Below are positions 1 through 29,718 of a stretch of 33,192 bases of DNA, piece by piece. The position numbers and the translations under genes were made by a program. Origin of the DNA: a virus. The notes under the pieces are model-generated. The model ran no database searches, was not told the origin of the DNA, and worked only from the letters and a program-made list of their open reading frames with translations. Position 1 is the stretch's first letter; each line of letters opens with the position of its first letter. Where the stretch lies: positions 1-33,192 of the IMG/VR virus record IMGVR_UViG_3300021438_000050; one strand, given 5' to 3'.

Positions 1-1275
1 GCTTGTGCCGCCCAAAAAAAGGCAGTTCTGGCCGAACGTTGAAACAACCCCGTCGCCGCTCACACCCTCGATGATGCAGTTATCGAAGATGCAGTCGGCC
101 ACACCCTCGACTGACGGCGAAACGTTGCGCGCGTCCAGTTTCATGGCGTTGACAGGGCGCGTCACCCATGGGGCCTCGTTGACAGATGTCGTCACCGAAA
201 AGCGCGTTGCCACTGCGAAATTGACTTGCAGCGCAGTGGTCGCGGCGGCCGTGCAAGTGAACCCCACATACCCGTGGTGCATAGAGCGCGACCACAGTGC
301 TGCCGTGGCAAGTGGCGCCTCAATGATCGGCTTGTTTCCGCGCCCAAACTCCACATCCCAGCGCAGGCCAGGCGCCACCCCGCCATCGATAATCCACGCC
401 GCAGCCGTAGCGCCGCCTGTGTACCGTAGCGTTACCCGGCCCCGGAACGTCACCCGCGCATGGTCCCAATCGATGGTCATCGGGGCGCTGTGCTTATACG
501 TGCCGGGCGCAAACTCGATGCCGTAATTGTTGGCCTTGGCGAAGGCGATACAGGCAGCTAGACCTGTTCCACCTGCCAAAGTTTCAGCAGCGCCGCTGCG
601 ATCTGCCAGCCACGGGAAGTCATGCGGGCAGACCGTGCCTATGCGGTGCCCGCCGAACGTACCTGCAACGTAGTTGACGGCGCCGGAGTAGCCAACCAGC
701 GAAGCGCCCTTGCCGATGGCCGTGCTGGCGAGGTCGGCCAGCGCCACCCCGGCGCCAGCGGTCGGTGCGTAGTTCACGAGCGATGCGCCGTCGACGCTCC
801 AGCCCAGCAGCTCGCTCGCGGCCGGCACGGGCAGCGACGGGTCCACGCCGGCGGTGGTGTCGGCCAGCATCACCGCGCGCCCGAGCTGGTCGCGCAGGGT
901 CATGATCTGCTTGGCCAGCTGGTCCAGCGCGTTCTCGTAGACCGTGGGGGAGAACGCGCCGCCGGTGGGCAGGTCCGAGGCCTGACCGTAGGCCACGTTC
1001 TCCCCGGTCACGACCAGGGCGTAGCCCGACGGCAGCGCGGTGGCCACGCCGCCCACGGCGTACTGCACCGAGCCGCCGGGCGAAGTCTCCTGGTCCCCGT
1101 TCAGGGTGACCAGGAAGCTGCTGTTGAGCACCAGGGTGGACTCGACGTCCGACGTGTCGGCCACGACGACGCGCAGCTCGGTCGCGTCGGTCACCTTGAA
1201 GGTGAAGGGGTAGCTGACGAGCGCGCCCGTCCCGGTGAAGGGGCCGGCGCGGCGCGAAGTGCTGGGGACGGTCAT
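1..1275 (-). CDS. Tail spike/tail fibre protein, N-terminal part (runs off window)
   Basis: This is the receptor-binding spike, attached to the podovirus tail and probably acting on host surface polysaccharide. The ATG at 1275 has an AGGAG ribosome site at 1282-1286. The frame stays open for 425 codons and runs off the window edge. Residues 1-150 resemble the T7 gp17-type virion-attachment domain (GPFTGTGALVSYPFTFKV near the start, then a helical stretch around LDQLAKQIMTLRDQLGRA). A linker with GKGASLVGYSG near residue 190 is typical of the head-binding/spike junction. From about residue 205 the sequence looks like a right-handed beta-helix (FAPGTYKHSAP, then short beta repeats such as CIFDNCIIEGVSGDGV). 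No catalytic residues can be assigned because the C-terminus is missing. Base composition becomes visibly less GC-rich from about position 650 leftward, suggesting mosaic exchange of the host-recognition part. Confidence 0.85.
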   Translation of the reverse strand, partial: MTVPSTSRRAGPFTGTGALVSYPFTFKVTDATELRVVVADTSDVESTLVLNSSFLVTLNGDQETSPGGSVQYAVGGVATALPSGYALVVTGENVAYGQASDLPTGGAFSPTVYENALDQLAKQIMTLRDQLGRAVMLADTTAGVDPSLPVPAASELLGWSVDGASLVNYAPTAGAGVALADLASTAIGKGASLVGYSGAVNYVAGTFGGHRIGTVCPHDFPWLADRSGAAETLAGGTGLAACIAFAKANNYGIEFAPGTYKHSAPMTIDWDHARVTFRGRVTLRYTGGATAAAWIIDGGVAPGLRWDVEFGRGNKPIIEAPLATAALWSRSMHHGYVGFTCTAAATTALQVNFAVATRFSVTTSVNEAPWVTRPVNAMKLDARNVSPSVEGVADCIFDNCIIEGVSGDGVVSTFGQNCLFLGGTS

Positions 1276-1293: not shown

Positions 1294-4200
1294 TTATCGG
1301 GGTTCCTGGTAGCCCAGCAACACGGCTGCCGGGTTCTGCGTCTGCCCTTCCACCAGGGCTTGCGTGCCGGTGATCGAGCGATTGAGCTGCGCGCTGGGCA
1401 GACCGAAGATGTCGCCCAGCAGGTTGATGGCCGCCTTGCGGAAGCTGTCGTCGAACTCGCCCTGGGCCGCCTGGGTGCTGAACTTGTAGGCATCCCCGAT
1501 GGCGCGCAGGCCGGGCGGGCCGGCGTAGTCGCGCGGCTGGCCCGCGCCGGTAACCGTTGTGGCCACCTGCCCGAACTCGCGCCCCACGACGAAGAGACCC
1601 ATCAGGAAGGACAACTGCTCGGCCAGCAGCTTGCGTGCCAGCTTCTCCCAGTCATCGTTGCCCGAATCGCCCGGCGTGATCGCGTCCTTCAGCAGCGCAC
1701 CCAGCACGGCCGGCACGGTGTAGAGCAGCAGCATGTCGGCCGCGAGCTTCGCCCGGCCAGCAGCCGTCCGCTCCGACGTCATGGCCCGTGCCGCGCCCAG
1801 GTTCGCCGCGGTGTTCATGAAGCTGTAGAAGGTCGTGAACAGCTTCAGCGCCGGGCCGCCGCGCTCGATGGCGGCGAGGTCCTTGGCCTGGCCACCGCCC
1901 TGCGCGTCGATCACCGCCTGGTCGGCCAGGGCCACCGCGCGCTTGTCGTCGTTGCCGTCGGCCACCGCCTTCTCGTAGGCCCCCAGCCAGGTCGGCACAT
2001 CGACCAGCTGCTGGAAGGCCATCATCATGCGGTAGGCATTCTCGCTGATCGCGCGCTTCACACCGCTCTGGCCCTGCACCCGGTTGCGCAGCTCGTTGAG
2101 CTCACGCAGGCGGGTGCGGCTGCGGCTGCGCATGAAGCTCGACATCTCGTTCGTCTTGCGCGCCGCGCCGAGCGGGCTGGCGAGCGACTGCATGACGCCC
2201 TTGCCGACCCACTTGGCACCGATGCGCACGATCGACTGCGTAAGGCCCAGCGGCTGCATCAGCGCTGACACCACGTTGAAGCCCAGGCCCGCCACGCTGA
2301 CCGACTGGCGCAGGCGGCCCAGGGCCATCTCCAGCGCGCTGTTGGCGCCCTGGTTGCCCGCGGCGATGTCATCGCGCCAGGACTTGAACTGGCCGACCAC
2401 CTCGGGCCCGTAGCGCTTGCGGATCGTGGAGTCGATCGCCTGGTTGCGCAGCAGCCTGTTCGTGTCGATCAGCCACTCGTGCCAGGCCAGGTCGTGGATC
2501 ACGTCCTGCACGCCGGTGTAGACGCCGGCCAGGGTGTAGAGCAGCGGCCGGCCGACCACCTCCTCGGCGCGGGACTTGGTGAAGCTGCGCCGCGTGGTGG
2601 CCGCGTTGTAGGCGCCCTTGAGCTGGGCCTTGGCCTCCTCGGCGCTGGCATGCTGCTCGGCCTTGCCGCTGGCCGACGGGTCGTACTTGATCGGGTAGTA
2701 GCCGCCGCGCAGGCCCTGGGCGTCGGTGACCGGCGAGCCGGGCTCGATCCACTCAGGCTCCTTGCCGAAGACCCGCTTTTCCTTCGCGCCGATCTCCGGG
2801 CGGAAGGTCTCGAAGTAGTCCCAGATGGACTGCACGGCCTTCCAGTCGGCCGGCGTGAGCGTGGCCAGCACGGGCTGCAGCTGGTCCAGCGTCCAGCCCT
2901 CACCGCCCAGCAGGCGCTGCAGGTTGCCGTCGTTGCCGGTGTTGAGCGCGATGGCCAGCACCTGCTCCTTGTTCAGGCTGGACCCGATCGACGGGAACCA
3001 GGTGCCCTTGCCGCCGAGCTTCGCCGCGTCGAGCAGCGGCTGCATGATCGAGGTGAGGTCGGCCGTGGCCTTGGCGATGCGCTCGGTCTCCCAGTCGCCG
3101 CGCTCGTTGGCGTTGCGCACGAAGTATTCCCACACCGGGCCGCCGTCCTTGCCGCCGTCCATGATGCGGGCCCAGGTGGCCACCTTGATGTGCGCCGCGC
3201 CGAAGTTGCGCAGACCCTTGAGCGCGCGGCCCAAGGTGTCGGCCGGCGTGCGCGTGATGCCCTTGCGGTTGCCTGCGTGGGCCACGATGCCGTCGACGAT
3301 GGTCTGCACGATGGTGGCGAACTCGCGCTGGTCCTGCGCGGTCAGCAGCTTGTTCTTCAGCCGGCCCAGGTGCTCGATCTGGCGCACCGTGTCCAGCAGG
3401 CCGAGGAACTGCTCGACGGTCATGTCACGGTAGCTGGTGAGCTGCGCGTCTTCGAGCAGGTAGTCCGGGATGTCGGGCTCGATGCCCAGGTCTTCCTGCT
3501 CGGCAATCCACGCCGCCAGCTTCGCGCGCCGGTCCAGCGCCGTGTTGGACTGCTTGCGCAGGTCGACCCGCTCCAGCAGCTTGTGGATCTGGTCCGTGTA
3601 CTCCTGGTCCAGGCCCTTGAGCACGGCCTTGTCGAACTTTTTCAGGTACTCGCGGCCGCGCTCGACCTGGTCCAGCGCCTCGGCCGAGGCCTTGTTCGCG
3701 TAGTGCTGCAGCAGCTGGTCCTGCTTGGCCTGGGCCGCTGCGGCCATGTCGCCGGCCGCCAGGGCCTTCTCCGCGGCCTTGGCTGCGCGCGTCTCCGCGG
3801 CGGCGTGCAGGCCAGGCTTCAGCTCGCGCACCTTGCGCCGGCCAGCCAGCTGTCGGCCGAACTCGCGGGCAGCCTTGGCCAGGACGCGCGGCGTCGGGCC
3901 GGCGACCTTGCGCCCGGCGGCCGAGCGCGCGCGGTCGGCCTTGGCCACCGCACTGTCGACGGCCGAGGTGAGCTTCGGGCTGGCCACGCCGTCGCGCAGC
4001 GCGGCGAGCTCGGTGGCCAGGAAGCGGCCGCGCGCCTCGTCGTGCAGGGCCTCGTCGACCGCACGGGCCAGGCCCTCGGGCGAGGACACATCGCCGTGGC
4101 GCTCCAGCATGCGCTGGTCTGTCATGCCTTCGATCACGCTGGTGCGCGGCTCGGCGTCGATGATCGTGCGCACGAGCTGGTCGCCCGAGGTGTAGCCGAA

Positions 4201-7200
4201 CATGCCGGCCACGACGTCGGGGTGCAGGCCGTTGGCCGCGGTCAGCCCTTTGAGCTTGCCCAGGTCCGGGTTGTCCAGCGCGGTGTCCGGGTACATCTCG
4301 GCCAGCGCCGAAGTGCTGAGGCGGAAGCCCTTCTCGGCCTTCACCTCCTCGCCGTCGGCGGTGGTCATCTCGCCCTTGCGCAACCAACGCATGGCCTGGT
4401 AGACAGGCATGGCGTCGACCTCGGCGGCCACCTCTGCCATCACCGCCTTGCGCTGATCCTTCACCTGGGCCTGCATCTCCTTGATCCGCCGGCTGCGGGC
4501 GTTGGCCAGCCAGCGCAGATCGCGCAGGCTGCGCGCCTGCAGCTTGTCGACGGCGCCCTCCTCGACCGCTTCAGCCTGCGCCTGGTAGGCCTGCCAGGCC
4601 ACGTCGGTCATGCCGGCGGGCTTCTCGCGGAACGCGGGCACCAGGTGCTGCGTGGCCTCGGCCTCCTTGATGGCCGCGTCGACGGCCAGCATGCGGTCGA
4701 ACACCGCACGCACCTCGTCGCTCAGGCCCAGGCCGTCGGGCGCGCCGCCCGGCGTGGCCTTGCGCCCGTCCAGGAAGTCCTTCAGCGAGCGGTAGACGTT
4801 GAGCATCCAGGCGCGGAAGCGGCGGAACACCGGGCGCAGCTCGGTGCTCGGTGCCTTGCCCTCCAGCAGGTACTGCTCGAAGCTCTCCGCGAAGCGCTCG
4901 TGGTGCTTGCGCTTCTGGCTGACGCTCAGCTGCTGCCACTCGGGCAGCGTCGTGCCGAACCACGTCATCAGCGTGTCGACGTCGCGCGCCACGTCAGCCG
5001 GCGCGTCGGTGCGCGAGCCGATGTCGGTGAGCACCTCCAGGAAGAAGTGCCCGGACTCGTGCAGGAAGCTGCTCAGGTCAGCGCCCTGCAGCAACGTGAT
5101 GGCGTTGGTGCCTGGCGTGAAGAGGGCGCGCGGCGATTCGGCGCTCACCTGGTAGAACTGGTTCCTGATCGCCACGTCATCGCCGCTGAAGACCACGTAG
5201 TTGCGCGCGGAGCTGTCGGCCTTACCGCTCAGGGACCCCACGGGGTAGCTGATGCCGCGGATGCCGGCGTCCATCATCACCAGCGAGGCCGCCTTCGCCA
5301 GGTCTCCGTCGATTGCCGCCTGCTCGGCTTCCCTCTCGGGGATCAGGGCATCGTCCATCAGAGCACGCTTAACGACCTTGAGCATGTCCTGGCCGGTCAG
5401 CTCATCGCGCTCGACGTTGAGCCTGTCGAGCACGTCTTCGAGCCAGTCAGCGGGCATCCGGTCGAGCAACGAATCGGCCGCCTTGCGGGCAACCCCGGGC
5501 TGCTCGCTCAGCGGCTTGTCCCAGTGGAGCATCTCGTCGTCGCCGGGGATGTCGACTTCGTAGACCTGCCCACCATCCGGCGGGTTGAACGCCTCGTCGT
5601 GAGACTGGATCCAGCCGTACAGCTCGGTCCACTCCTTCGCCGGCGCTGGCTCGTCCTCGGCCACGATGATGTTGGCACTGATGTCGTCATTGGCGGCCAG
5701 CATGTCGCCCTTGTGCTTCATGACGAGCGCGGCCAGGACATCGGTCGCCGCCTTGCTCAGGCCATCCTTGCCAGCCACGTCGCGCGCGAACCGCACGGCG
5801 TCGGCGCCCAGCATGCCGTTGTAGGTCTTGCCATCGAACACCAGGGCGTGCGGGTTGTGGTTGGTCAGCTTCTGCCGGTAGTGCTCCGCGATCTCCCTCT
5901 TGCCCGCAAAGTAGAGCCCCCAACCAAAGGCCTGGTGACCCTCGCCCGTGCCGATCTTGTCGGCGCTGAACTTGTCGATGCCGCGGTGTGGCGTGCCGTG
6001 GTAGGCGGTCTGCGCCAGCGAGTCCATGTCGCCAGCTCGGCCCTCGGTCCAGGTCCACTCGGGCATGAGCCCGGTCTTCTGCTCGGCGAAGACCGTGTCC
6101 TCGACCTTGGCTGTCTGGTTGGCCGCGCCGTGCGGACCGTAGTTCAGCCAGCTGTTCTGGCCGCGGGTCTCGCTGGTGATGGCGCCCACCGCGCTGCCGG
6201 TGAACAGGCGGACGTGGGCCTGCCATGCGTTCTCCTCGCCCTGGGCGCGGAAGCCTGCGCCCTCCAGGCCATGGCCGAAGGCGTCGTGCACCGCACGGAA
6301 GAGGTCGTTGGCCAGCACGCGGCGCTTCGGGCCATCGGGTGAGCCGAAGCCCCACTCGATGCCGGTGTCAGCCAGCAGCGGGTTGACCTTGTCCGAGGCC
6401 TTGGCGCCGTCCAGGCGCAGGAAGTAGTCCGGGTTGTAGGGGCCCCAGGCCTCGGCCTTCGGGCCGAAGAGGTCGCCCGTGCCGTTGTCCAGGCGCTGCG
6501 CGATGGCCTCCTGGCCCAGGGCCTTGGACAGCGCGTCGCCCTGCTCGGGTGTCAGCGGCGCCTTGAGCTTCACCACGACCGTCGGCTCGGTGTCCGAGGT
6601 GTGCACGGCGTTGGCCTCGACCTCGCCGCCGGCATCGCGGATCGCCTGGATCACCGCGGCGGGATCGAGCTGCGGGCCGCCGGCCGGATCGGCCAGGCCC
6701 ACGTTGAGCTCGGCTCCCACGCCGAAGCCAGCCTCGGTGGCGAACACGCCCATGCGCTGGTTGGCCCGCAGGTCGCGCATGGCGTTCCACGGGTTGCCGG
6801 CGTAGGGGTCGTTCGTCTCGTCGTGCAGGTAGAACACGTAGCCCGCGGCCTGCAGCGCGTGGTACTGGTCCAGCGTCTGCCGGATCAGGTTCTCGTAGGC
6901 CTCCTTGACCGCCGGGTTGTCGGGCTCGTTGGGCATGTCGGCGTAGGCCTGCGCGATGCGCGCGGCGCGCACCGGGTCTACTTCGACGTAGCGGTCCTGG
7001 CGGCGGAGGGCGATGCCGCGCTCGGCGGCGTACTGCTCGGCGACGGCGACGAGCCGCGGGTCGGGGCCGCTGGCCCCTGCCACAGTCGGCGCGCCCGCAA
7101 GCGGCGCAAGGCTTCCGCCCGGAGCCCCTGGTCCTCGGTTTCCATTCAGGCCCCCTTGCTCGTAGCTGCCGGCGGCGCGCTGGGCGCGGAGCCGTTCGAG

Positions 7201-10200
7201 GCGCCGGGCGGCCTGGAGCTGGAGCTTGCGCTGAGCCTCTGGATCAAACGCAGCTGCTTCTCCGCCAGGCTGGGTTGCTTCGTCAGCGACGCCTGCATCA
7301 GGTCGCTGAGCGCTTGCGAGGGCGTCGAGCTTGTCGGCATAGCCGGCCTCCTTGAGGATGGCCCCGTAGGTGGGGTCGTTGAACAGCGAGCTGAAGTCCG
7401 GGGTGGCGTTGATCAGGTCGTCGGTAAGCTTGCCCTCCTGCAGCGCACGGGTGGCGGTCATGTCGCCGACCTGCAGCTCGTAGAGGGTCTTGGCCCACGA
7501 CCACACCGTCTCCTGCACCTCGGCCGGCGTCCAGGTGTCGCCGGTCACCTTCGTCAGGTAGGCCGCCGCCTCGCGCGTGCGGGCTGACATGGCCAGGTAG
7601 CCCGAGCCCTTGCCGGGGTCGGTGCCCAGCACGTTCATCGAGCCGGCGAACATGACCTGGTCGATCAGCGCGTAGTTGGCCATCCAGGCGTCGTTCGTCA
7701 CCTCGCCGGCCACGCCGATGAGGTTCAGGAAGAAGCTGTTGACCTTGGGGCCCGACAGCATCACGCGCGACGTGGCCGCGCCGGCCGGGTTCTCTTCGGT
7801 CAGCGCACGCACCGAGTTGTTGATCCAGGCGTCCAGCACGCTGGCCCGGCCGCGCCCGCCCTGCACGCTCTGGCCCATCACGTCGATGATGGCCTCGCGA
7901 TCGGTCGGTCGACCCTGCTCGGTCCAGTTCTTCCAGATGTTCAGCGCGTTGAGCAGGTTGGTCTCGACCGAGCACTGCGGGCTGGTGGCGGCCAGCAGCG
8001 CGGCGAAGCGTGGGCCGTCGGGTCCGAAGACGGCGCTGATGGTCTCGGCCGAGGCCTTGTACCAGCCGCGCTTGGCCTGGCCGCCCAGGGCCACCGCCGC
8101 CATCTCCTTGGCCGACGGCAGCGACTGCAGTTGCGCGATGACCTTGGCCGCGGTGGCGTCGGTGATCTTGCGCTGCTCGGTCGGCGTCAGGTTCTTCAGC
8201 AGTTTGCGCACCGCCGGCGTCATGTCCTTGACGCGCGACTGCTCCAGCGGGGCCGCCTGCTTGGGCCGCGACTGCAGCTCACCACCCGCGATACGCAGGT
8301 CGTAGTTGGCCCAGGCCGGGCTGGCCTGCATGCGCTGCAGCTTGGCCTGCAGGTGCTCGGGCTGGCCCGCGGCCTGCGTCGTCCAGGTGGCCTCGGCGGC
8401 CGGCAGCGGCTCGACCTTCTGTCCCGCCTCGATCTGCGACTGCGCGCCCAGCAGCTCGGGCTGGAAGGTCTGCCGACCCAGCATGATGACCTGGCCGGGC
8501 TGCGTGCCCTCCAGGCGCGTGGCGTAGCCCCGGTAGCCCAGGTCCAACAACTTGCTCTCGAAAGCCCGGGCGTCGCCGGTGCGCAGCTTCAGCGGGTCAG
8601 CGTCGGCGTCGTAGACGCCCGTGAGCTGCACGCGGTGGGCGCGCGCCCCGACGCCGGCCTCCGGCCGCACGCCGGTGCCCTTGTCGAAGTAGAAGCTCAG
8701 CCGCTCGCGCAGGCGCGCATCCGGGTGGGCCATGATCTCGTCGCGCGCGCTGCCCTTCAGCCCGGTGCCGAAGAAGCTGGTCGACAACAGCGTGCGGTCC
8801 TGCTTGCTGAAGTGGTAGCCCTCGACGTTGATGGCGCCGGGCAGGCCCGCATCCCTGTAGGCCTCGCCCACGGGGCTGGTGGCCTGCACCTTCAGGGCGT
8901 GCCGGTTGAACAGCTCCTCGGCCGTCGTGCCGGTGCGCTGCGCCATGGTCGCGAAGAACGCGGCGTGCAGCGCGGCGTAGGCCGTGTTGACGTCGGCGGT
9001 GAAGCGGCCCGCCTTCTGCAGCTCGTCGAACACCCGCTGGCGCACGGCCTCAGCGCTGGCGCGCGCGGCGTCGTCCTGCGAGGCCTGGGCCAGCACCTCC
9101 TCGGCCTTGGCCTGCACGTCGGCCGAGGCCTTGCTGCTGGCCTCCTTGGCCTCGGCCTGGCTGAGCTCGTTGTCGCCGATGCGCGCGTGCTGGAGCAGCA
9201 CCTGCTCCAGCGGCGTGCCGGCCAGCTGGCTGAACTCGCCGACGGGCACGGTCACTTCACCGCCGGCGGCGACAGCTTCGACCAGGCCGGCCGCCGCGGT
9301 GGGCAGCACGCGGGCGATCTGCGCAGGCTCGACGCCGGCCTGCTGCAGCGCGTCGACCAGCGTGCGCGCGTCGAAACGCACCTCGGTGGGCGCGCCGTCG
9401 GTGCCCTCGGCCAGGGCCTGCATGAGCCCGCCCGACACGTCAGGCGCCCGCTCGTGCAGCTTCATGGCCGCCTGCAGCTTCATGAGCTCGGTGAGCGTGG
9501 CCGCGCTGTTCTCCGCGCGGTGGGCCTTCTCCGCGTCGATCGCGGCGGCACCCAGCACATGCGTCAGGCCGTGGCCGACAGCCACGTTGCCGCCCACGCC
9601 GATCAGCGTGGCGATCAGCGTTTGCGCTGCCGCGCTGGGCCGTTCTTCGAGGTAGGCCGAGAAGGGCTTGTCCTTGTTCTCCGGCAGGACAGCCCACTCG
9701 TTGAGGTCTTGCAGCAGGGTCGCCACTTGTTCGCCGGGGATCTCCTGCGCGGCGTCCGTGAGCGCGGTGCGCACGAGCGAGGTGCCACCCTTCAGGTTCT
9801 TCAGCAGCGTGGCCAGGGGGATGACCTCGGTGGCGTACTCGATGGCCGCCTGCGACGCCGCAAAGGGCAGCGCCTGGCTCATCGGCATGCCCTGCTCGCG
9901 CCCCTGCTGGTAGGCATCGCCGCCGGTCTGCGCGGACATGCCGGCCAGCGCGGCGGCCTGCCCGCCGGGCAGGAAGGCCAGGGGGAGCGTCAGCAGGTTC
10001 TGGGTCAGGGACTGCACGCCCGAACTGACGCCGCCGGCCACGACGCCTGGCTGCGCGGGGCTCAGTGCCTTGCGCTGCGCGTCCGCGGCGGCGCCCTGCA
10101 TGGCGAAGCCCTCGGCCAGGCGGCGCAGCGGGTTGCCGCCCAGGCCAGGGTAGCGCTCCAGGGGGTCGAGCAGCGGCGCGGCCAGTTCGGCCGCTGCCTG

Positions 10201-10644
10201 GCCCACGCCGGCCGCGCCGCGCGACGCGCCGAACACGCCCGCACCGACATCGCCGGCCAGGGTGTTCTTGGCGCTGGGGTGGCTGGTGAGGTACTTCGCC
10301 ACCGCGCTCGCACCGTCCACGAACGCACCCAGCGCGTCGGTGTCGTCGTGCACCAGGCGGGCGAAGTCCGGGTCGAGCATGCGCTGCTGCAGCACCGGGT
10401 GCTTGCCGGCCACCTGCGCCGCGCTGTTGGCCTTGTCCTCCAGGCGCGACTCGGGCCAGGTGTTGACCACGGCCTCCACCGGCAGGCCCAGGCGGCCAGC
10501 CACGCGACGCTGCGCCGCAAAGGTGTCGCCCTGGAACTGGTCGGCCTGCTGCGCGGTGGCGCGCACCGCGGCGCCATCCAGCGCCTGGCGGCCCCGGATC
10601 TTGTCGAGCAGGGCCTGGTCTTCGGGCGTCAGTTCACCGGCCAT
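1294..10644 (-). CDS. Giant polyvalent virion protein (3116 aa) with ADP-ribosyltransferase-like and zincin-like modules
   Basis: One uninterrupted 3116-residue frame in the place of the very large internal or ejected proteins of Bcep22-like podophages. Modules by residue: 175-370, glycine/alanine-rich hydrophobic segments; 605-730, an ART-like module (GYHFSKQDRTLLS, RPEAGVG, LGYRGY); 840-1055, a helical module with GPKVNSFFLNLIG and VTNDAWMA; 1235-1530, a module with PDNPAVKEAYENLIRQTLDQ and later VHDAFGH, GEENAW and ETRGQNSWLNYGPHG; 1545-1790, an ART-PolyVal-type domain (AYHGTPHRGIDKFS, GWGLYFAGK, then GIRGISYP); about 1845-1960, a zincin-like HESGH (H1862) with FAESFEQYL downstream; 1980-2450, coiled-coil-rich; 2780-3116, a C-terminal LPD38-like region with hydrophobic helices. 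The ATG follows GGAG by 7 nt and overlaps the preceding gene by 11 nt. Family knowledge suggests delivery with phage DNA to modify or protect against host factors. Individual activities are inference. Confidence 0.85.
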   Translation of the reverse strand: MAGELTPEDQALLDKIRGRQALDGAAVRATAQQADQFQGDTFAAQRRVAGRLGLPVEAVVNTWPESRLEDKANSAAQVAGKHPVLQQRMLDPDFARLVHDDTDALGAFVDGASAVAKYLTSHPSAKNTLAGDVGAGVFGASRGAAGVGQAAAELAAPLLDPLERYPGLGGNPLRRLAEGFAMQGAAADAQRKALSPAQPGVVAGGVSSGVQSLTQNLLTLPLAFLPGGQAAALAGMSAQTGGDAYQQGREQGMPMSQALPFAASQAAIEYATEVIPLATLLKNLKGGTSLVRTALTDAAQEIPGEQVATLLQDLNEWAVLPENKDKPFSAYLEERPSAAAQTLIATLIGVGGNVAVGHGLTHVLGAAAIDAEKAHRAENSAATLTELMKLQAAMKLHERAPDVSGGLMQALAEGTDGAPTEVRFDARTLVDALQQAGVEPAQIARVLPTAAAGLVEAVAAGGEVTVPVGEFSQLAGTPLEQVLLQHARIGDNELSQAEAKEASSKASADVQAKAEEVLAQASQDDAARASAEAVRQRVFDELQKAGRFTADVNTAYAALHAAFFATMAQRTGTTAEELFNRHALKVQATSPVGEAYRDAGLPGAINVEGYHFSKQDRTLLSTSFFGTGLKGSARDEIMAHPDARLRERLSFYFDKGTGVRPEAGVGARAHRVQLTGVYDADADPLKLRTGDARAFESKLLDLGYRGYATRLEGTQPGQVIMLGRQTFQPELLGAQSQIEAGQKVEPLPAAEATWTTQAAGQPEHLQAKLQRMQASPAWANYDLRIAGGELQSRPKQAAPLEQSRVKDMTPAVRKLLKNLTPTEQRKITDATAAKVIAQLQSLPSAKEMAAVALGGQAKRGWYKASAETISAVFGPDGPRFAALLAATSPQCSVETNLLNALNIWKNWTEQGRPTDREAIIDVMGQSVQGGRGRASVLDAWINNSVRALTEENPAGAATSRVMLSGPKVNSFFLNLIGVAGEVTNDAWMANYALIDQVMFAGSMNVLGTDPGKGSGYLAMSARTREAAAYLTKVTGDTWTPAEVQETVWSWAKTLYELQVGDMTATRALQEGKLTDDLINATPDFSSLFNDPTYGAILKEAGYADKLDALASAQRPDAGVADEATQPGGEAAAFDPEAQRKLQLQAARRLERLRAQRAAGSYEQGGLNGNRGPGAPGGSLAPLAGAPTVAGASGPDPRLVAVAEQYAAERGIALRRQDRYVEVDPVRAARIAQAYADMPNEPDNPAVKEAYENLIRQTLDQYHALQAAGYVFYLHDETNDPYAGNPWNAMRDLRANQRMGVFATEAGFGVGAELNVGLADPAGGPQLDPAAVIQAIRDAGGEVEANAVHTSDTEPTVVVKLKAPLTPEQGDALSKALGQEAIAQRLDNGTGDLFGPKAEAWGPYNPDYFLRLDGAKASDKVNPLLADTGIEWGFGSPDGPKRRVLANDLFRAVHDAFGHGLEGAGFRAQGEENAWQAHVRLFTGSAVGAITSETRGQNSWLNYGPHGAANQTAKVEDTVFAEQKTGLMPEWTWTEGRAGDMDSLAQTAYHGTPHRGIDKFSADKIGTGEGHQAFGWGLYFAGKREIAEHYRQKLTNHNPHALVFDGKTYNGMLGADAVRFARDVAGKDGLSKAATDVLAALVMKHKGDMLAANDDISANIIVAEDEPAPAKEWTELYGWIQSHDEAFNPPDGGQVYEVDIPGDDEMLHWDKPLSEQPGVARKAADSLLDRMPADWLEDVLDRLNVERDELTGQDMLKVVKRALMDDALIPEREAEQAAIDGDLAKAASLVMMDAGIRGISYPVGSLSGKADSSARNYVVFSGDDVAIRNQFYQVSAESPRALFTPGTNAITLLQGADLSSFLHESGHFFLEVLTDIGSRTDAPADVARDVDTLMTWFGTTLPEWQQLSVSQKRKHHERFAESFEQYLLEGKAPSTELRPVFRRFRAWMLNVYRSLKDFLDGRKATPGGAPDGLGLSDEVRAVFDRMLAVDAAIKEAEATQHLVPAFREKPAGMTDVAWQAYQAQAEAVEEGAVDKLQARSLRDLRWLANARSRRIKEMQAQVKDQRKAVMAEVAAEVDAMPVYQAMRWLRKGEMTTADGEEVKAEKGFRLSTSALAEMYPDTALDNPDLGKLKGLTAANGLHPDVVAGMFGYTSGDQLVRTIIDAEPRTSVIEGMTDQRMLERHGDVSSPEGLARAVDEALHDEARGRFLATELAALRDGVASPKLTSAVDSAVAKADRARSAAGRKVAGPTPRVLAKAAREFGRQLAGRRKVRELKPGLHAAAETRAAKAAEKALAAGDMAAAAQAKQDQLLQHYANKASAEALDQVERGREYLKKFDKAVLKGLDQEYTDQIHKLLERVDLRKQSNTALDRRAKLAAWIAEQEDLGIEPDIPDYLLEDAQLTSYRDMTVEQFLGLLDTVRQIEHLGRLKNKLLTAQDQREFATIVQTIVDGIVAHAGNRKGITRTPADTLGRALKGLRNFGAAHIKVATWARIMDGGKDGGPVWEYFVRNANERGDWETERIAKATADLTSIMQPLLDAAKLGGKGTWFPSIGSSLNKEQVLAIALNTGNDGNLQRLLGGEGWTLDQLQPVLATLTPADWKAVQSIWDYFETFRPEIGAKEKRVFGKEPEWIEPGSPVTDAQGLRGGYYPIKYDPSASGKAEQHASAEEAKAQLKGAYNAATTRRSFTKSRAEEVVGRPLLYTLAGVYTGVQDVIHDLAWHEWLIDTNRLLRNQAIDSTIRKRYGPEVVGQFKSWRDDIAAGNQGANSALEMALGRLRQSVSVAGLGFNVVSALMQPLGLTQSIVRIGAKWVGKGVMQSLASPLGAARKTNEMSSFMRSRSRTRLRELNELRNRVQGQSGVKRAISENAYRMMMAFQQLVDVPTWLGAYEKAVADGNDDKRAVALADQAVIDAQGGGQAKDLAAIERGGPALKLFTTFYSFMNTAANLGAARAMTSERTAAGRAKLAADMLLLYTVPAVLGALLKDAITPGDSGNDDWEKLARKLLAEQLSFLMGLFVVGREFGQVATTVTGAGQPRDYAGPPGLRAIGDAYKFSTQAAQGEFDDSFRKAAINLLGDIFGLPSAQLNRSITGTQALVEGQTQNPAAVLLGYQEPR

Positions 10645-12391
10645 CGAGGAGCTCCGGGTTCTCGGCGACGAAGCGCGAGAGGTTCGCGGGGGTGGGCGCG
10701 TAGCGCTGCTTGTCGGCCTCGGTCTTGGCGCCCTTCAGCAGTTCCTGCATCAGGCCGGCGGCGCGGGCGCGCACGGCCTCGGGCAGCACCAGGCGCTCGC
10801 GCTCGGCCGGCGTCGTGGCCAGCAGCGGCACCGACTTGTTGGGCAGCAGCGTGCGGTTGACGATGACCACGCGGCTGAATTCGCGGTTGATCACCGCGGT
10901 GCGCTCGGCCGCGGTGAGCTGGCGCTTCTTGTCGGCCTGCTCCTGGCGGATGGCCGACTCGACCGCGTTCTTCGCCTCGACCAGGACGCCCTTCTGCTCC
11001 TCGCTCAGGCCCTTCTTGTTGGGGTTCAGCCCCGCGCGCTGCGCGAAGACGTTGAACTCGTCGTTGTCCAGGCGGGCCTCGCTCAGGCCGCCGGGCTTCT
11101 GCAGCGCGTCCCACTTCTTCAGCAGGTCGTCGGCCTTCTCGCGGCCGACCAGGCGCTGCGCGGCCATGACCTCCTCGCGCGTCATCCGCGCCAGCAGGTC
11201 AGGGTTCTGCAGGCGCATGTAGTCATCCCAGTTGCGGATGGCCAGCAGGTGGTCCTGGACCTGCAGACGGTGCAGATCGCGCGAGGCCTCATCGGCCTGT
11301 GCGCGGATCCGGGCGTGCAGGCGCTGCTCCTGCTCGTAGGTGATGCGGTCCTGCTCGTGCGCGGGCAGCGCCTGCCAGGCGTCGCTCGTGCGAGCCTTGC
11401 TCAGCGGCATGCCCGCATTGAGCTGGGCGTAGACCGCGTTCACGTTGCCGGTCATGCGCTCCTTCTCGGCCGTCTGCTGCGCCTGCACGAGCTCGTCCAG
11501 GGCCTGGCGCGCAGCATTGCGGCGAGTCGGGTCGTTGCCGAAGCGCTTGTCGATGGCCGCCAGCATCTGGTCGGTCTGCACCGGCGCGAAGTCAGCCTTC
11601 GGGCCCAGGGCTTGCCAGACCTCCTGCGCGGCTGCGGCGCCATCGACCGCGGCGCCGATCTGCTCCAGCTTGGGCAGGATCTGCCGGCGACCGGCGTCGC
11701 TGATCTCGCCGCGCGCGTTGACCTCGTCGTAGTAGGCCTGGGCCGCCTTCGGGTCGCGGCGCACCAACTGTGTCAGCACGGCGTCGTGCAGCACCGTGCT
11801 GTTCGTCAGCCGGTCCTGGCTGACCTGGTCCGCGTCCCAGCCCTTCAGCGCCCCGTAGGCCGCGCTGCGCTGCTTGATGTCGGCCAGGGCCTTGGCCACG
11901 GCGTCGGGCGTGCCGATGCGCGCGGCCTCCTCGATCGACGCGCTGTTGGACGCCCGGTAGGCACCCTCGGCCGCGCCGTTGAGCTGCTGCTCACGGTAGC
12001 TGTGGGCGTTGGCCACGCTCTGCAGCTGGCTCTGCCGCAGGGACTTGCTGACCAGCTGCCTGGCGCGCGGGCTCAGGTCCGGGCCGACCGTCTCGGCCGC
12101 GGTCTTCCACCAGGTGTCGACCTCGTCCGGGTAGGTCTGTGCCTTCTCGCCCTGCCGCTGGCGGCGCAGCTCGCCGTCGTAGTCGAGCCACTTCGCCCGC
12201 ACGGCGGCCTCCGCGTTGAACGCGGCGATCTGGTCCTGGCGCTCCTGGTAGCGGTCGAGCTCACCGGCCGCCGACTGCAGGCCTTGCGCCAGTGCGCGCT
12301 GCTCGCGGGTGACGTCGACCTGGTCGTAGCGTGCGCCGGGCAGCGCCTGCTCGATGACCTGTGGGCCGCCGTACTGGGGGACGACAGCCAT
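10634..12391 (-). CDS. Internal virion protein, helical (585 aa)
   Basis: A 585-residue protein that is almost entirely charged alpha-helix and coiled coil, with no signal peptide or membrane segment. It opens with MAVVPQYGGPQV, followed by long Ala/Gln/Arg-rich helices (DRYQERQDQIAAFNAEAAV, YPDEVDTWWKTAAETVGPDL). Proteins of this look and position, between a small membrane-type internal protein and a giant internal protein, are common in podoviruses. They are thought to be internal core or ejection proteins analogous to T7 gp15, although I see no residue-level similarity to T7. The start lies 3 nt after the preceding stop and its end overlaps the giant gene by 11 nt, so the three internal-protein genes are probably translated together. 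No enzymatic motif is recognisable. Confidence 0.7.
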   Translation of the reverse strand: MAVVPQYGGPQVIEQALPGARYDQVDVTREQRALAQGLQSAAGELDRYQERQDQIAAFNAEAAVRAKWLDYDGELRRQRQGEKAQTYPDEVDTWWKTAAETVGPDLSPRARQLVSKSLRQSQLQSVANAHSYREQQLNGAAEGAYRASNSASIEEAARIGTPDAVAKALADIKQRSAAYGALKGWDADQVSQDRLTNSTVLHDAVLTQLVRRDPKAAQAYYDEVNARGEISDAGRRQILPKLEQIGAAVDGAAAAQEVWQALGPKADFAPVQTDQMLAAIDKRFGNDPTRRNAARQALDELVQAQQTAEKERMTGNVNAVYAQLNAGMPLSKARTSDAWQALPAHEQDRITYEQEQRLHARIRAQADEASRDLHRLQVQDHLLAIRNWDDYMRLQNPDLLARMTREEVMAAQRLVGREKADDLLKKWDALQKPGGLSEARLDNDEFNVFAQRAGLNPNKKGLSEEQKGVLVEAKNAVESAIRQEQADKKRQLTAAERTAVINREFSRVVIVNRTLLPNKSVPLLATTPAERERLVLPEAVRARAAGLMQELLKGAKTEADKQRYAPTPANLSRFVAENPELLDGR

Positions 12392-12394
12392 GGC

Positions 12395-12853
12395 TCAGCC
12401 CTTGGTCCGGTACCACTGCCCGGCCACCGCGGGCGCGCTGGTCAGCAGGGAGGTGTTGAAGGCGTTGTTGGGGTCGTTCGCGGCCGACTGGATGCCGTAG
12501 TTGTTCTGCGCCACCGTGTGCGCCCAGGCGTCCTTGCGCGCGTTCGTGCGTGCCGTCGCGGCGTCGACCTGGCCGAAGAAGTCGGTCTGATCGATGATGT
12601 CGGCCGCGGTGCCCTCGCTGACGTCGATGCCCCGGGCGGCGTAGGCCGCGCGCTGCGCGCTGGCGATCTGCCGCGCGCGGCGCTGCGCCAGCATGGCCTG
12701 GTCCTCGCCGCGCTTCAGGTCGTCCTGCGCCTGCATCTCGGCGACCTTGGCGTTGTTGTTGGCGATGGCCCGATTGGCCGTGGCCTGGTTGCGCGCGGCT
12801 TGCGCGCCCACCAGCGCGGACACGATCATCGTGCCGACGACGAAGTAGCTCAT
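12395..12853 (-). CDS. T7 gp14-like internal virion protein (152 aa)
   Basis: The start is placed at the ATG at 12853 (MSYFVVGTMIVSALVGAQAA). It overlaps the upstream stop as TGATG and has GGAG 7 nt upstream. A longer in-frame start at 13021 would add 56 Arg/Pro-rich residues encoded inside the upstream gene and is unlikely. The product has an N-terminal hydrophobic segment at about residues 3-20, a charged helical middle (AQDDLKRGEDQAMLAQRRARQ), then AARGIDVSEGTAADII. That last pattern recurs in short podovirus internal proteins of the gp14 type. In T7, gp14 inserts in the host outer membrane as part of the DNA-ejection conduit. A similar role is inferred from the membrane-type N-terminus and from its position ahead of two large internal proteins. 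Confidence 0.65.
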   Translation of the reverse strand: MSYFVVGTMIVSALVGAQAARNQATANRAIANNNAKVAEMQAQDDLKRGEDQAMLAQRRARQIASAQRAAYAARGIDVSEGTAADIIDQTDFFGQVDAATARTNARKDAWAHTVAQNNYGIQSAANDPNNAFNTSLLTSAPAVAGQWYRTKG

Positions 12854-13278
12854 CAGTGCTCCAGGGCGGACGCGGGCCGCATGGCGTCGAGCAGGCGGAA
12901 GTCCTCGGTCACGGCGACGCGCTCGAACTCGTCGGGGTCCAGGCCGACCAGGTTGCTGTGCACGGTCGTGACCCAGGTGTCGGTGATTGCGGCCAGGGTG
13001 CGCTGCACGCCGGCCTTGCACTCCAGGGTGTGGTAGCCCTCGTAGTGCGTCAGGCCCGCCTGGTCGTAGACCCAGACGTCGCCCAGGATGAGCACCGCGT
13101 GGTCACGCAGGTGCAGCTTGCCGATGACCATGGAGCCGGCGCGCATGAACATCTCGCGCAGGTAGACCCCGCCGACGTTGAAGTGCCGGATCTCCGGGGT
13201 GGCCAGGGCTTCAGGGTGTGCCCGGGCCTGGGCCAGCAGGGCCTCGACCCGCTCGCGCATGTAGGTGCTGGTGTCCAT
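12853..13278 (-). CDS. Cupin-like phage protein
   Basis: A 141-residue protein. From about residue 38 onward it alternates beta-strand patterns typical of a small cupin/jelly-roll domain: YLREMFMRAGSMVIGKLHL, HAVLILGDVWVY, EGYHTLECKAGVQRTLAA, TWVTTVHSN. The His residues H56 and H60, an E near residue 85 and the H of TVHSN could line a metal pocket as in cupins, but this cannot be confirmed by eye. Small cupin-like proteins of unknown function occur in podovirus tail/internal-protein clusters. The start overlaps the upstream GNAT-type gene by 68 nt, an unusually long overlap for this phage. A second in-frame ATG at 13260 has no better ribosome site. The stop overlaps the next start as TGATG. 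Confidence 0.6.
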   Translation of the reverse strand: MDTSTYMRERVEALLAQARAHPEALATPEIRHFNVGGVYLREMFMRAGSMVIGKLHLRDHAVLILGDVWVYDQAGLTHYEGYHTLECKAGVQRTLAAITDTWVTTVHSNLVGLDPDEFERVAVTEDFRLLDAMRPASALEH

Positions 13279-13741
13279 CGGCGTGCATCTCGAAGCGGTG
13301 GAACATCTCGCCCCTCACGCCGAACGGCCCCGCAGGGTGGATGGTGAACCCCAGGCGGCGCAGCCAGCGGACGGCGACCACGTTGTCGGCGTGCACATAG
13401 TTCAGCAGGTGCTGAAACCCAGCCTCGAACGCCCCGTCAATGTAGCCCAGGGGGAGGCGCATAAGTGCCACGCGCTGCGCACGCATGGCCTCGGTGCCCA
13501 GCAGCCAGATGGCGCCGGTGGTGCTGAGCAGGCCGCCCAGCGGGGCGATGCCGAACATCGCGATCGGCTCACCGTCGAGCACGGCGGTGCGGGCGTGCAC
13601 CGAGGCCTCCAGCCCCTGGCGCAGCGCCCCGTAGGGTGTCAGCCCGACGGCCGCGCACTCGACGATGTCGATGTCCCGCAGGTGCACGGCCAGGGTCCTC
13701 GCATCGGAGGCCGTGGCCGGGCGCAGGACGACGTCAGCCAC
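13211..13741 (-). CDS. T7 gp13-like, GNAT-fold protein
   Basis: A 176-residue protein with a GNAT-like arrangement: LRPATASDARTLAVHL at the N-terminus, a central beta region (HARTAVLDGEPIAMFGIAP, GAIWLLGTEAM) and a C-terminal LNYVHADNVVAVRWLRRLGF. The last segment is the usual final helix and strand of GNAT proteins. The WLLGTEAM context matches the T7 gp13/DUF2833 family, which is associated with assembly of the internal virion core. The start codon is a GTG at 13741 and overlaps the nozzle gene stop by 8 nt. The last 25 residues are Gly/Pro/His-rich and are encoded in the 68-nt overlap with the next gene. Acetyltransferase activity is not established; the usual acetyl-CoA loop is not obvious. 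Confidence 0.65.
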   Translation of the reverse strand: MADVVLRPATASDARTLAVHLRDIDIVECAAVGLTPYGALRQGLEASVHARTAVLDGEPIAMFGIAPLGGLLSTTGAIWLLGTEAMRAQRVALMRLPLGYIDGAFEAGFQHLLNYVHADNVVAVRWLRRLGFTIHPAGPFGVRGEMFHRFEMHADGHQHLHARAGRGPAGPGPGTP

Positions 13742-28781: not shown

Positions 28782-29156
28782 TCATGCACGCAGCTCCCTG
28801 CTGAAATTCGCGCGTTCATAGCGGCGACGCCTGCAGTTCTCGCTCGGCGTCACCAGCTCCAGGTGGTCCGGGTTGATGCACGACGGCTGCCAGCAGAGGT
28901 GATCGAGCTCCAGCCCGGCCAGCTGGAGGGCCTCGTAGGCCTCCATCAGCCCGCAGGCCAGGGCCTGGGCGTCGGTGGCCAGCCACGCCAGAATGTGAGC
29001 CATGAAGCGGCGCGCCTGGCCCAGGTGCGGCACCCACACCGTCAGCCTGGCGTAGCCCCCGGCGTCGGCCTTGCCCTTCCAAAGCCAACAAGCCTGCGCG
29101 TTGGCAGGCTCGTGGGTGTTGGCGACGAGGCGCTGGAGCATCGTCTCGTAGGCCAT
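28782..29156 (-). CDS. HNH endonuclease
   Basis: The start is placed at the ATG at 29156 (MAYETMLQRLVANTHEPANA), in a TGATG overlap with a micro-ORF; longer in-frame starts cover Pro/Arg-rich non-coding sense. The 124-residue protein has the small phage/homing HNH layout: ACWLWKGKADAGGYARLTV, AHILAWLA, then LELDHLCWQPSCINPDHL. D85-H86, N95 and H98 are the likely catalytic and metal residues, C88/C93 form a possible structural pair, and the block ends VTPSEN. Such enzymes nick or cut DNA and metal-bind through a beta-beta-alpha fold. HNH proteins encoded near terminase can assist packaging, but this one is separated from terminase by a rightward gene. It may equally be a free-standing selfish nuclease. 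Confidence 0.85.
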   Translation of the reverse strand: MAYETMLQRLVANTHEPANAQACWLWKGKADAGGYARLTVWVPHLGQARRFMAHILAWLATDAQALACGLMEAYEALQLAGLELDHLCWQPSCINPDHLELVTPSENCRRRRYERANFSRELRA

Positions 29157-29245
29157 CAATCGGGGTTCATGAGGTTGAACACCAGCCAGGCCAGGCCCAG
29201 GGCCACGGGGGCGGCCAGGGCGGCGCAGACCAGGAGCAGGATCAC
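29156..29245 (-). CDS. Micro-ORF: single-pass membrane peptide (29 aa)
   Basis: A 30-codon frame from a GTG at 29245 to a TGA at 29156-29158. It reads as one hydrophobic helix (VILLLVCAALAAPVALGLAW followed by LVFNLMNPD). The GTG overlaps the preceding stop as GTGA and the stop overlaps the HNH start as TGATG, so it fits exactly in an overlapping gene chain. An AAAGGCGG sequence lies close upstream. It could be a small inner-membrane effector, a holin-like peptide or only a coupling ORF. The hydrophobic composition with a polar C-terminus is not typical of chance frames here. Confidence 0.5.
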   Translation of the reverse strand: MILLLVCAALAAPVALGLAWLVFNLMNPD

Positions 29246-29331
29246 AGGCCACCGCCTTTCGTGGCGGCCCGGCGCAGCTCATAGGGCCGGTCACACCCGC
29301 CACGCGCCATCGGAGCGGGGGCGGCTTCCAT
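29242..29331 (-). CDS. Micro-ORF: 29-residue basic peptide
   Basis: A 30-codon frame from an ATG at 29331 to a TGA at 29242-29244. It reads MEAAPAPMARGGCDRPYELR and ends RAATKGGGL. It starts 3 nt after the stop of the 127-residue protein and its stop overlaps the membrane micro-ORF as GTGA. Translation is supported by this exact fit into the operon and by an ending (AAAGGCGGTGG) resembling the repeated gene-junction sequence found further upstream. It may start at the second ATG (29310). No function is known. Confidence 0.4.
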   Translation of the reverse strand: MEAAPAPMARGGCDRPYELRRAATKGGGL

Positions 29332-29334
29332 CGC

Positions 29335-29718
29335 TCACAGCTCGCCCCCATCGCTCAAGTCGTCCGCCGTCAGCTTGCACTCGCGCGTGCGGCCGACGAT
29401 GCGGAAGTAGCCCGACAGGTTGACGTGTTTGTCGGCCCATTGCCGCACCAGCGTGAGAAGTTCTTCCTTGGCTTCAGCGCCGGCGATGGAGAAGTTGCTG
29501 TCAGCGGTCTCGCCGACGACCCGGTATAGGTCGTCGTCCAGGAGATCGAGTATTTGCCCGATGAAGTTCTCGTGAACGAGCGCCGAGTTGGTCATCGGCT
29601 CGCAGTCAGCGACGTAATACGTGTCGCCGACCTTCGGTTCGTCCATGGCGTCGATGACGCTACCAATATCGGAATGGACGAAGTCCTCGTCGTTGGTGCT
29701 GTAGTAGTGGATGCTCAT
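29335..29718 (-). CDS. Acidic phage protein, unknown function
   Basis: A 127-residue acidic protein (SIHYYSTNDEDFVHSDIGSV, VGDTYYVADCEPMTNSALV, ILDLLDDDLYRVVGETADSN) with a helical C-terminal part (AEAKEELLTLVRQWADKHVN) ending in a strand-like FRIVGRTRECKLTADDLS. Proteins with this N-terminal pattern are encoded in early regions of many phages of high-GC hosts, but no function is known to me. GC is visibly lower than in the structural block. The start overlaps the preceding stop as ATGA and includes the repeated junction sequence. It lies in the early operon downstream of replication genes. Confidence 0.65.
   Translation of the reverse strand: MSIHYYSTNDEDFVHSDIGSVIDAMDEPKVGDTYYVADCEPMTNSALVHENFIGQILDLLDDDLYRVVGETADSNFSIAGAEAKEELLTLVRQWADKHVNLSGYFRIVGRTRECKLTADDLSDGGEL

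Follow-up and report, generated by a model that had tools for sequence, protein, structure and literature searches.

A giant phage polyvalent protein in which two fixed ends enclose a variable cargo bay

What is the role of a single phage gene that encodes a protein of 3116 residues, and how is such a protein built? The question is raised by a 33,192-base virus record of 69.6% G+C, which was analysed over its whole length and is called the window here. The gene occupies positions 1294..10644 (stop codon included) on the minus strand; a preliminary description, made from the letters alone, had given the same open reading frame but had left the strand unstated. We accept it as a real gene because its third-position G+C is 0.93 and because it has homology to phage proteins at both ends. 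It overlaps the end of the upstream open reading frame by 11 bases. Two plus-strand frames opposite the gene (2479-6342 and 8131-10860) were dismissed as spurious, since they show the mirror image of the codon bias that goes with 70% G+C. The predicted protein contains a single cysteine.

In transcription order, the genes of the window include those for the small and large terminase subunits, a head-tail adaptor, a protease-type product, the major head protein and tail proteins. Internal virion protein genes (phrog_308 and phrog_418) come next, and the giant gene stands between one for an endolysin-type protein (phrog_10475) and one for a tail fibre. The structural cassette of Bordetella phage BPP-1 is arranged in the same way, with bbp10 in the slot of the giant gene, and DNA similarity to BPP-1 amounts to 72% over 10% of a 24-kb query. 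The neighbours also lie on the minus strand. An internal virion protein gene fills the bbp12 slot (12395..13021, start approximate; phrog_418, E 3.3e-28), the endolysin-type structural protein gene lies immediately upstream in the bbp11 slot (10634..12391; phrog_10475, E 1.5e-14, and BPP-1 order), and the tail fibre or tail protein gene lies downstream in the bbp9 slot (1..1275, cut by the window end; phrog_1640, E 9.3e-15). The slot of the giant gene may resemble that of T7 gp16. The location of the gene among structural genes, next to those of internal virion proteins, argues for an ejection-type product, and we think it probable that the gene encodes a giant internal protein of a BPP-1-like podovirus, in which a fixed chassis with an exchangeable bay would carry cargo directed against host defence. 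Two small genes lie between the tail protein and internal virion protein genes (13211-13741 and 12853-13278), matching an internal virion protein family (phrog_308) and a short tail fibre family (phrog_12032). An HNH endonuclease-type gene (28782-29351) lies close to the terminase genes.

The same slot has been given another meaning. Related records carry labels such as 'lysin' and 'lysis protein' (Caulobacter Jess A, a Nostoc phage and others), OANV1 gp16 is called similar to the Bbp10 lysin in the accessible text of PMC9239159, and the upstream gene is of endolysin type, all of which would suit a cell-wall lysin with modules that aid entry or lysis. However, no peptidoglycan hydrolase family in Pfam, PHROGs or NCBIfam matched the giant protein, and the wall-active part is the neighbouring gene, so that we regard a lysin as very unlikely.

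The architecture of the protein became apparent from its alignment with Bbp10 of BPP-1 (phrog_9880). The two share their gene slot, a zincin and both ends, Bbp10 (2052 aa) aligning with residues 7-593 at 44% identity and with residues 1828-3116 at 56%, and with nothing between. In contrast to the window protein, the bay of Bbp10 is only about 175 aa long and contains none of the five modules described below. From the Bbp10 alignment and the match to phrog_9880, which in the C-terminal part extends over residues 1831-3106, we define an N-terminal chassis of residues 1-597 (8854..10644, minus strand) and a C-terminal chassis of residues 1830-3116 (1297..5157, minus strand). The N-terminal chassis includes an LPD22 domain at residues 35-107 (10324-10542, minus strand; Pfam E 4.1e-9). 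The preliminary description had instead proposed a hydrophobic N-terminal part and an LPD38-like C-terminus, neither of which held up: the sole 19-residue stretch with a Kyte-Doolittle mean of at least 1.6 starts at residue 2967, and Pfam LPD38 matched none of 14 C-termini at E <= 0.1.

Relatives were collected from viral contigs with five baits (the chassis C end, M3, DUF7178, ART2 and ART1), at most 80 loci being kept per bait, and from prokaryote genomes with the chassis C end. This gave 411 loci (400 in viral contigs, some of which recur, and 11 in phage records) and 20 genome loci, the latter mostly in Burkholderiales-type bacteria and other proteobacteria. Open reading frames with a near-complete N chassis, the zincin and the C chassis numbered 145 distinct sequences, or 138, including the window, after removal of copies identical in the zincin and the end of the N chassis. 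In a separate tblastn search with the whole protein, Mycobacterium phages made up 187 of the 244 records. Across the 138 proteins the computed bay length ranges from 10 to 2053 aa, with a median of 858, and four bays are of 60 aa or less (L134, L106, L414 from Comamonadaceae and L431 from Caballeronia). Since module baits enrich for modules, the count was repeated with only the chassis as bait, which gave 67 distinct proteins at 100 loci. Here the bay spans 10-1259 aa, with a median of 504; DUF7178 is found in nine proteins, ART2 in seven, ART1 in three, and M3 and INS in one each. All five are absent from 52 of the 67, indicating that most chassis hold other or unrecognised cargo.

The order of modules is also free. 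Among the 138 proteins, ART1 precedes DUF7178 11 times and follows it 14 times, precedes M3 nine times and follows it nine times, and DUF7178 stands before M3 13 times and after it three times. One relative (L099) carries the window's five modules in the permuted order ART2-DUF7178-INS/M3-ART1 between the same ends. Given this freedom, the range of bay lengths and the restriction of the Bbp10 match to the two ends, the protein consists of fixed N- and C-terminal chassis around a variable cargo bay, an arrangement that the preliminary description, while naming several modules, had overlooked. The near-empty bays show that the middle is dispensable for the chassis, and they would fit a virion protein whose middle modules work in the particle or its assembly, for example in DNA binding or core filling, rather than as enzymes in the host, the variable middle being tolerated filler; so too would the 52 bays in which nothing was recognised. 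Yet filler does not explain the permutation of whole modules, nor why catalytic-type residues are kept in distant relatives (zincin 138/138, the Lys/Asp pair of DUF7178 68/68, the His/His/Glu set of M3 103-104/104), and we consider this reading rather improbable.

The zincin belongs to the fixed part. It spans residues 1836-1960 (4765..5139, minus strand) and contains HESGH at 1862-1866, exactly where the preliminary description had put it, followed by E1916 and E1923 as the downstream acidic residues; H1862, E1863, H1866, E1916 and E1923 are kept in all 138 relatives, the window included. Residues 700-1000 of Bbp10 served as a seed of the CLCA_X set in the zincin study of Lenart et al. (PMC3650047, as far as its available text goes), so this zincin has been described before. 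According to a proposal of Iyer et al. (PMC5512222, in the sections consulted), polyvalent proteins are divided into units by their zincins. Because the zincin of the window protein lies in the fixed part, it is more likely to act in processing or to have a structural part than to be an effector in its own right, and probably it would cut the cargo free or mature the protein.

The first bay module, ART1 (residues 599-742; 8419..8850, minus strand), was examined in an AF2 model of residues 598-1118, which covers ART1 and DUF7178 (71 aligned rows, mean pLDDT 90.5), by running VIA-align on the Foldseek candidates. The structural matches of ART1 are MbcT (Z 7.0), NatT (6.6), diphtheria toxin (5.6), the anti-CRISPR 6kyf (5.5), which we presume to be AcrIF11, and Rhs toxins at Z 4.3 and below, all of which we take to be ART-fold proteins; the Z range over this fold, 7.0-4.2, is moderate. 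Conserved residues include H611 (86/88), Y652 (79/88) and E696 (87/88). ART1 is thus predicted to have an ART fold, as had been suggested for residues from about 605 to 730, and the modelled domain is a confident one. It resembles phage ARTs such as 6kyf in fold, but differs from them in that it has no Pfam match and in that its third catalytic residue is uncertain.

ART2 (residues 1545-1830; 5155..6012, minus strand) was assigned from the Pfam ART-PolyVal profile PF18760 and from conserved residues. The profile match (E 1.5e-5) scores 26.2 bits, below the cut-off of 31.2, and spans only residues 18-62 of the 321-aa segment; H1549 and Y1578 are invariant, each in all 82 rows with a letter at that place. 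PolyVal-type ARTs are described with a His in strand 1, a Tyr in strand 2 and an Asp in strand 5 (PMC5512222, consulted in part), and NYVVFSGDD at 1815-1823 holds a candidate for the Asp. The sub-cut-off profile together with the invariant His and Tyr supports ART2 as a putative PolyVal-type ART. The segment of 1545-1790 first proposed for it was right in kind but too short, the module extending to about 1830. A zincin follows ART2 within 150 aa in 31 of 31 rows, in a set chosen for ART2 beside M3 or a zincin.

DUF7178 (residues 844-1083; 7396..8115, minus strand) was recognised by Pfam (E 1.9e-6). Its top VIA-align matches are 8-oxoguanine glycosylases, namely 3knt (Z 11.0, 184 aligned residues, rmsd 3.7), 3n0u (Z 10.9) and 3fhg (Z 10.7), followed by human OGG1 (Z 8.2) and MutY (7.4). 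Indeed, all of the first 17 rows come from that superfamily, and the best-scoring different fold in the region reaches Z 5.7, with the caveat that helical models may reach such Z values without kinship. A Lys/Asp pair with an 18-residue spacing, presumably that of Endonuclease III, had been predicted before the fold search; K967 and D985 are conserved in 68 of 68 rows. Like the HhH-GPD glycosylases MjaOgg, TmOgg and SsOgg, DUF7178 is predicted to have the fold over about 180 residues, and in its sequence a GPK turn is followed by a Lys and an Asp that are separated by 18 residues. Unlike them, it shares only 10-13% identity, and hhalign against HhH-GPD sequences (sets of 4 and 10) was not significant, with a probability of at most 1.5. 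A Foldseek search of the 598-1118 model against the PDB gave no match at E <= 0.001 (best E 0.35), and tblastn of DUF7178 against named phages returned no match at E 1e-3. On the strength of the modelled structure, we consider it likely that DUF7178 has an HhH-GPD DNA-glycosylase fold.

M3 (phrog_3170) is split in the window protein. Its first part, residues 1190-1308 (6721..7077, minus strand), is identified by being contiguous with the second in relatives, and the second part, residues 1419-1546 (6007..6390, minus strand), carries the motifs VHDAFGH, GEENAW and TSETRGQNSW. The two parts are contiguous in ctQRb9, in Nostoc phage Nsp-JY18 and in MinM2 proteins, as well as in viral contigs, L014 and L016 among them. 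M3 is widespread, being confirmed in at least 580 viral stretches; the window's copy has no Pfam match at E <= 1. H1453, E1470, E1471, H1477 and E1492 are invariant (104/104) and H1458 nearly so (103/104), and it could be that H1453, H1458 and E1492 form a metal site. The HDxFGH motif is common to M3 and to both PF00351 proteins compared. Kinship with the aromatic amino acid hydroxylases was nevertheless kept as a lead only, as hhalign was not significant (probability 4.4), and a Fic-like reading of the motif was considered and dropped. The viral structure library also contains M3-like folds that stand alone, in a 433-aa protein of Mycobacterium phage Spud and a 291-aa protein of Gordonia phage Skog.

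Between the two parts of M3 lies INS, a PII/ferredoxin-like domain of residues 1309-1418 (6391..6720, minus strand), defined by an AF2 model of residues 1187-1548 (M3 with INS; 59 rows, pLDDT 93.7, pTM 0.85) and its structural matches. The first VIA-align rows for this model all fall over INS and are phage SAM lyases: 6znb at Z 8.1 (98 aligned, rmsd 6.7) and 6zm9 at Z 8.0 (88 aligned, rmsd 2.5, 18% identity). Foldseek of the model against the PDB gave no match at E <= 0.001, and it lists the T3 SAM lyase 8bb1 for INS at E 0.062 and probability 0.97. In the viral structure library, INS has matches to short phage proteins (114-130 aa; E 5e-8 to 7e-4) and, at E 0.094, to a SAM hydrolase from a Vibrio phage. 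E1353, which closes the b2-b3 loop, and Q1378, which lies between a2 and b4, are each present in 15 of 15 rows, and G1339, whose position is less certain, in 14 of 15. SAM and SAM-AMP lyases have a catalytic Glu and a conserved Gln at those loop places (PMC7877911 and PMC12255297, in the parts available), and phage SAM lyases conserve Gly56, Glu69 and Gln104 (PMC7877911, same limitation). In its predicted structure, INS may thus resemble the SAM lyases Svi3-3 and T3 gp0.3 and the SAM-AMP lyase AcrIIIB4 in fold and in the loop positions of Glu and Gln. It differs from the SAM lyases in its place within a second domain of a very large protein, in that no equivalent of Tyr58 is seen and in the lack of significant sequence similarity: hhalign against seven T3-type SAM lyase sequences was not significant, its best alignment pairing the TE and QE/QD sites. 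Known SAM lyases are trimers. tblastn gave a weak match, covering 54% of the query at E 1e-3, among small genes that lie upstream of the primase in Acinetobacter phage PMK34.

Screening the PDB with sequence profiles of DUF7178, M3 and INS gave nothing credible; one match, 9i38 (a record named m4D2; E 0.0014, 37 residues), looks like a helix artefact. For both models, the first Foldseek rows in the PDB (transporters, TUTases, glutamine synthetase) had TM-scores of about 0.1 and were disregarded.

The modelled structure is also compatible with INS as a ligand-binding regulatory domain of ACT/PII type that senses a metabolite for M3, paired with DUF7178 as a protein of glycosylase-derived fold that modifies or binds DNA and is no glycosylase. 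ACT domains match INS at Z 7.4, a tie with the SAM lyases by the VIA rule, and in five distinct proteins INS lies within M3 as a regulatory insert would (the window, L080, L099, L227 and the single contig of L022/L339). For DUF7178, PaMx11 gp46, a phage DNA-hypermodification enzyme, is among the matches (Z 4.9). However, INS is found beside M3 in L388 and L340 and without a surrounding match to the second part of M3 in L111, L231, L175, L352, L354, L380 and L233 (the arrangement in L180 is ambiguous); it also has counterparts in small separate phage proteins, and its invariant Glu and Gln seem to stand at SAM lyase positions. Likewise, the glycosylases score far above gp46. This pair of readings is possible, though we would not bet on it, and we lean slightly towards INS being a SAM-lyase-like enzyme.

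With these modules, one phage polypeptide combines unrelated effector-type domains (ART1, DUF7178, M3 with INS, ART2 and the zincin) with LPD22. The preliminary description had rightly listed both ARTs and the zincin, but it had missed DUF7178, M3 and the nested INS. Its assignment of the protein to the polyvalent class is borne out by the phage-type make-up, with two ART-type modules and a zincin, and by the slot of a BPP-1 structural-cassette gene. Like the phage-type polyvalent proteins of Iyer et al. (2017, PMC5512222, judged on the sections consulted), it is multidomain and phage-encoded and has ART, zincin and LPD domains. What sets it apart is the single exchange bay in a fixed chassis, together with the modules that resemble SAM lyases and glycosylases; the main text of that paper, as far as it was available, contains none of the words glycosylase, SAMase, SAM hydrolase and adenosylmethionine. 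In the literature searched, we found no paper on DUF7178, none treating polyvalent proteins as virion ejection proteins and none joining a DNA glycosylase with a phage ejection protein, while SAM lyase and polyvalent protein were joined only within one reference list. Polyvalent proteins are thus known, whereas no description of the exchange bay or of the two fold assignments was found in the literature searched.

These results suggest a model whereby the ejection-type protein serves as a carrier. The computation itself shows the chassis and the bay, the permuted and nested modules, the predicted folds and the conserved residues, whereas packaging, ejection, cleavage and the individual activities and targets are inferred. 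The fixed ends probably secure its packaging and its passage through the tail together with the DNA, after which the cargo (two ARTs, the DNA-glycosylase-like module, M3 and the nested SAM-lyase-like domain), released or matured by the zincin, would act in the host before phage genes are expressed. The target would most likely be host defence, with SAM removal acting against restriction and BREX and the ART modules ADP-ribosylating host proteins. Delivery and zincin processing have been proposed for the polyvalent class by Iyer et al. (PMC5512222, in the portion seen). The literature yielded no virion proteomics for any family member; PMC3863775, in its accessible text, reports mass spectrometry for Bbp16 and Bbp17 only and does not mention Bbp10. 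The model is weakened by the non-significant hhalign results for INS with SAM lyases, DUF7178 with HhH-GPD proteins and M3 with aromatic amino acid hydroxylases, by the lack of PDB matches at E <= 0.001 in Foldseek, by the sub-cut-off score of ART2 and by the many chassis in which none of the five modules was found. Its fullest form, in which BPP-1-like phages carry a pre-loaded, exchangeable counter-defence magazine in the virion, a fixed chassis with its own protease delivers the bay enzymes, a SAM lyase and a DNA glycosylase act at DNA entry and M3 is a new metal-dependent family, is speculative, and we consider it unlikely to be correct in every part.

Viewed in this way, a loosely defined class becomes a testable machine, with one chassis and many natural cargo sets that are open to comparison with host defences, and with four natural near-empty versions as controls. 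The assignments also provide fold-based leads for two families of unknown function, DUF7178 and phrog_11722 (INS), and draw attention to M3 as a conserved domain that has no name. A virion-packed SAM lyase, if true, would bridge the time before early genes like T3 0.3 are expressed.

Finally, the C-terminal part is a separate open reading frame in some relatives, starting at about query residue 2245 in L096, L111 and L123 and at the zincin in L113. This could agree with the parts acting as separate chains, or could reflect frameshifts or contig effects. A second insertion site was noted in the C chassis (residues about 2084-2130, window 4255-4395), where alignments break near query residue 2088 and resume near 2134 and where many relatives add roughly 100-200 aa. 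A 3125-aa relative is encoded in the 39-kb genome of Limnohabitans phage DC33 (L008, PQ492659.1), whose record places the phage in Inoviridae, which is a poor fit.
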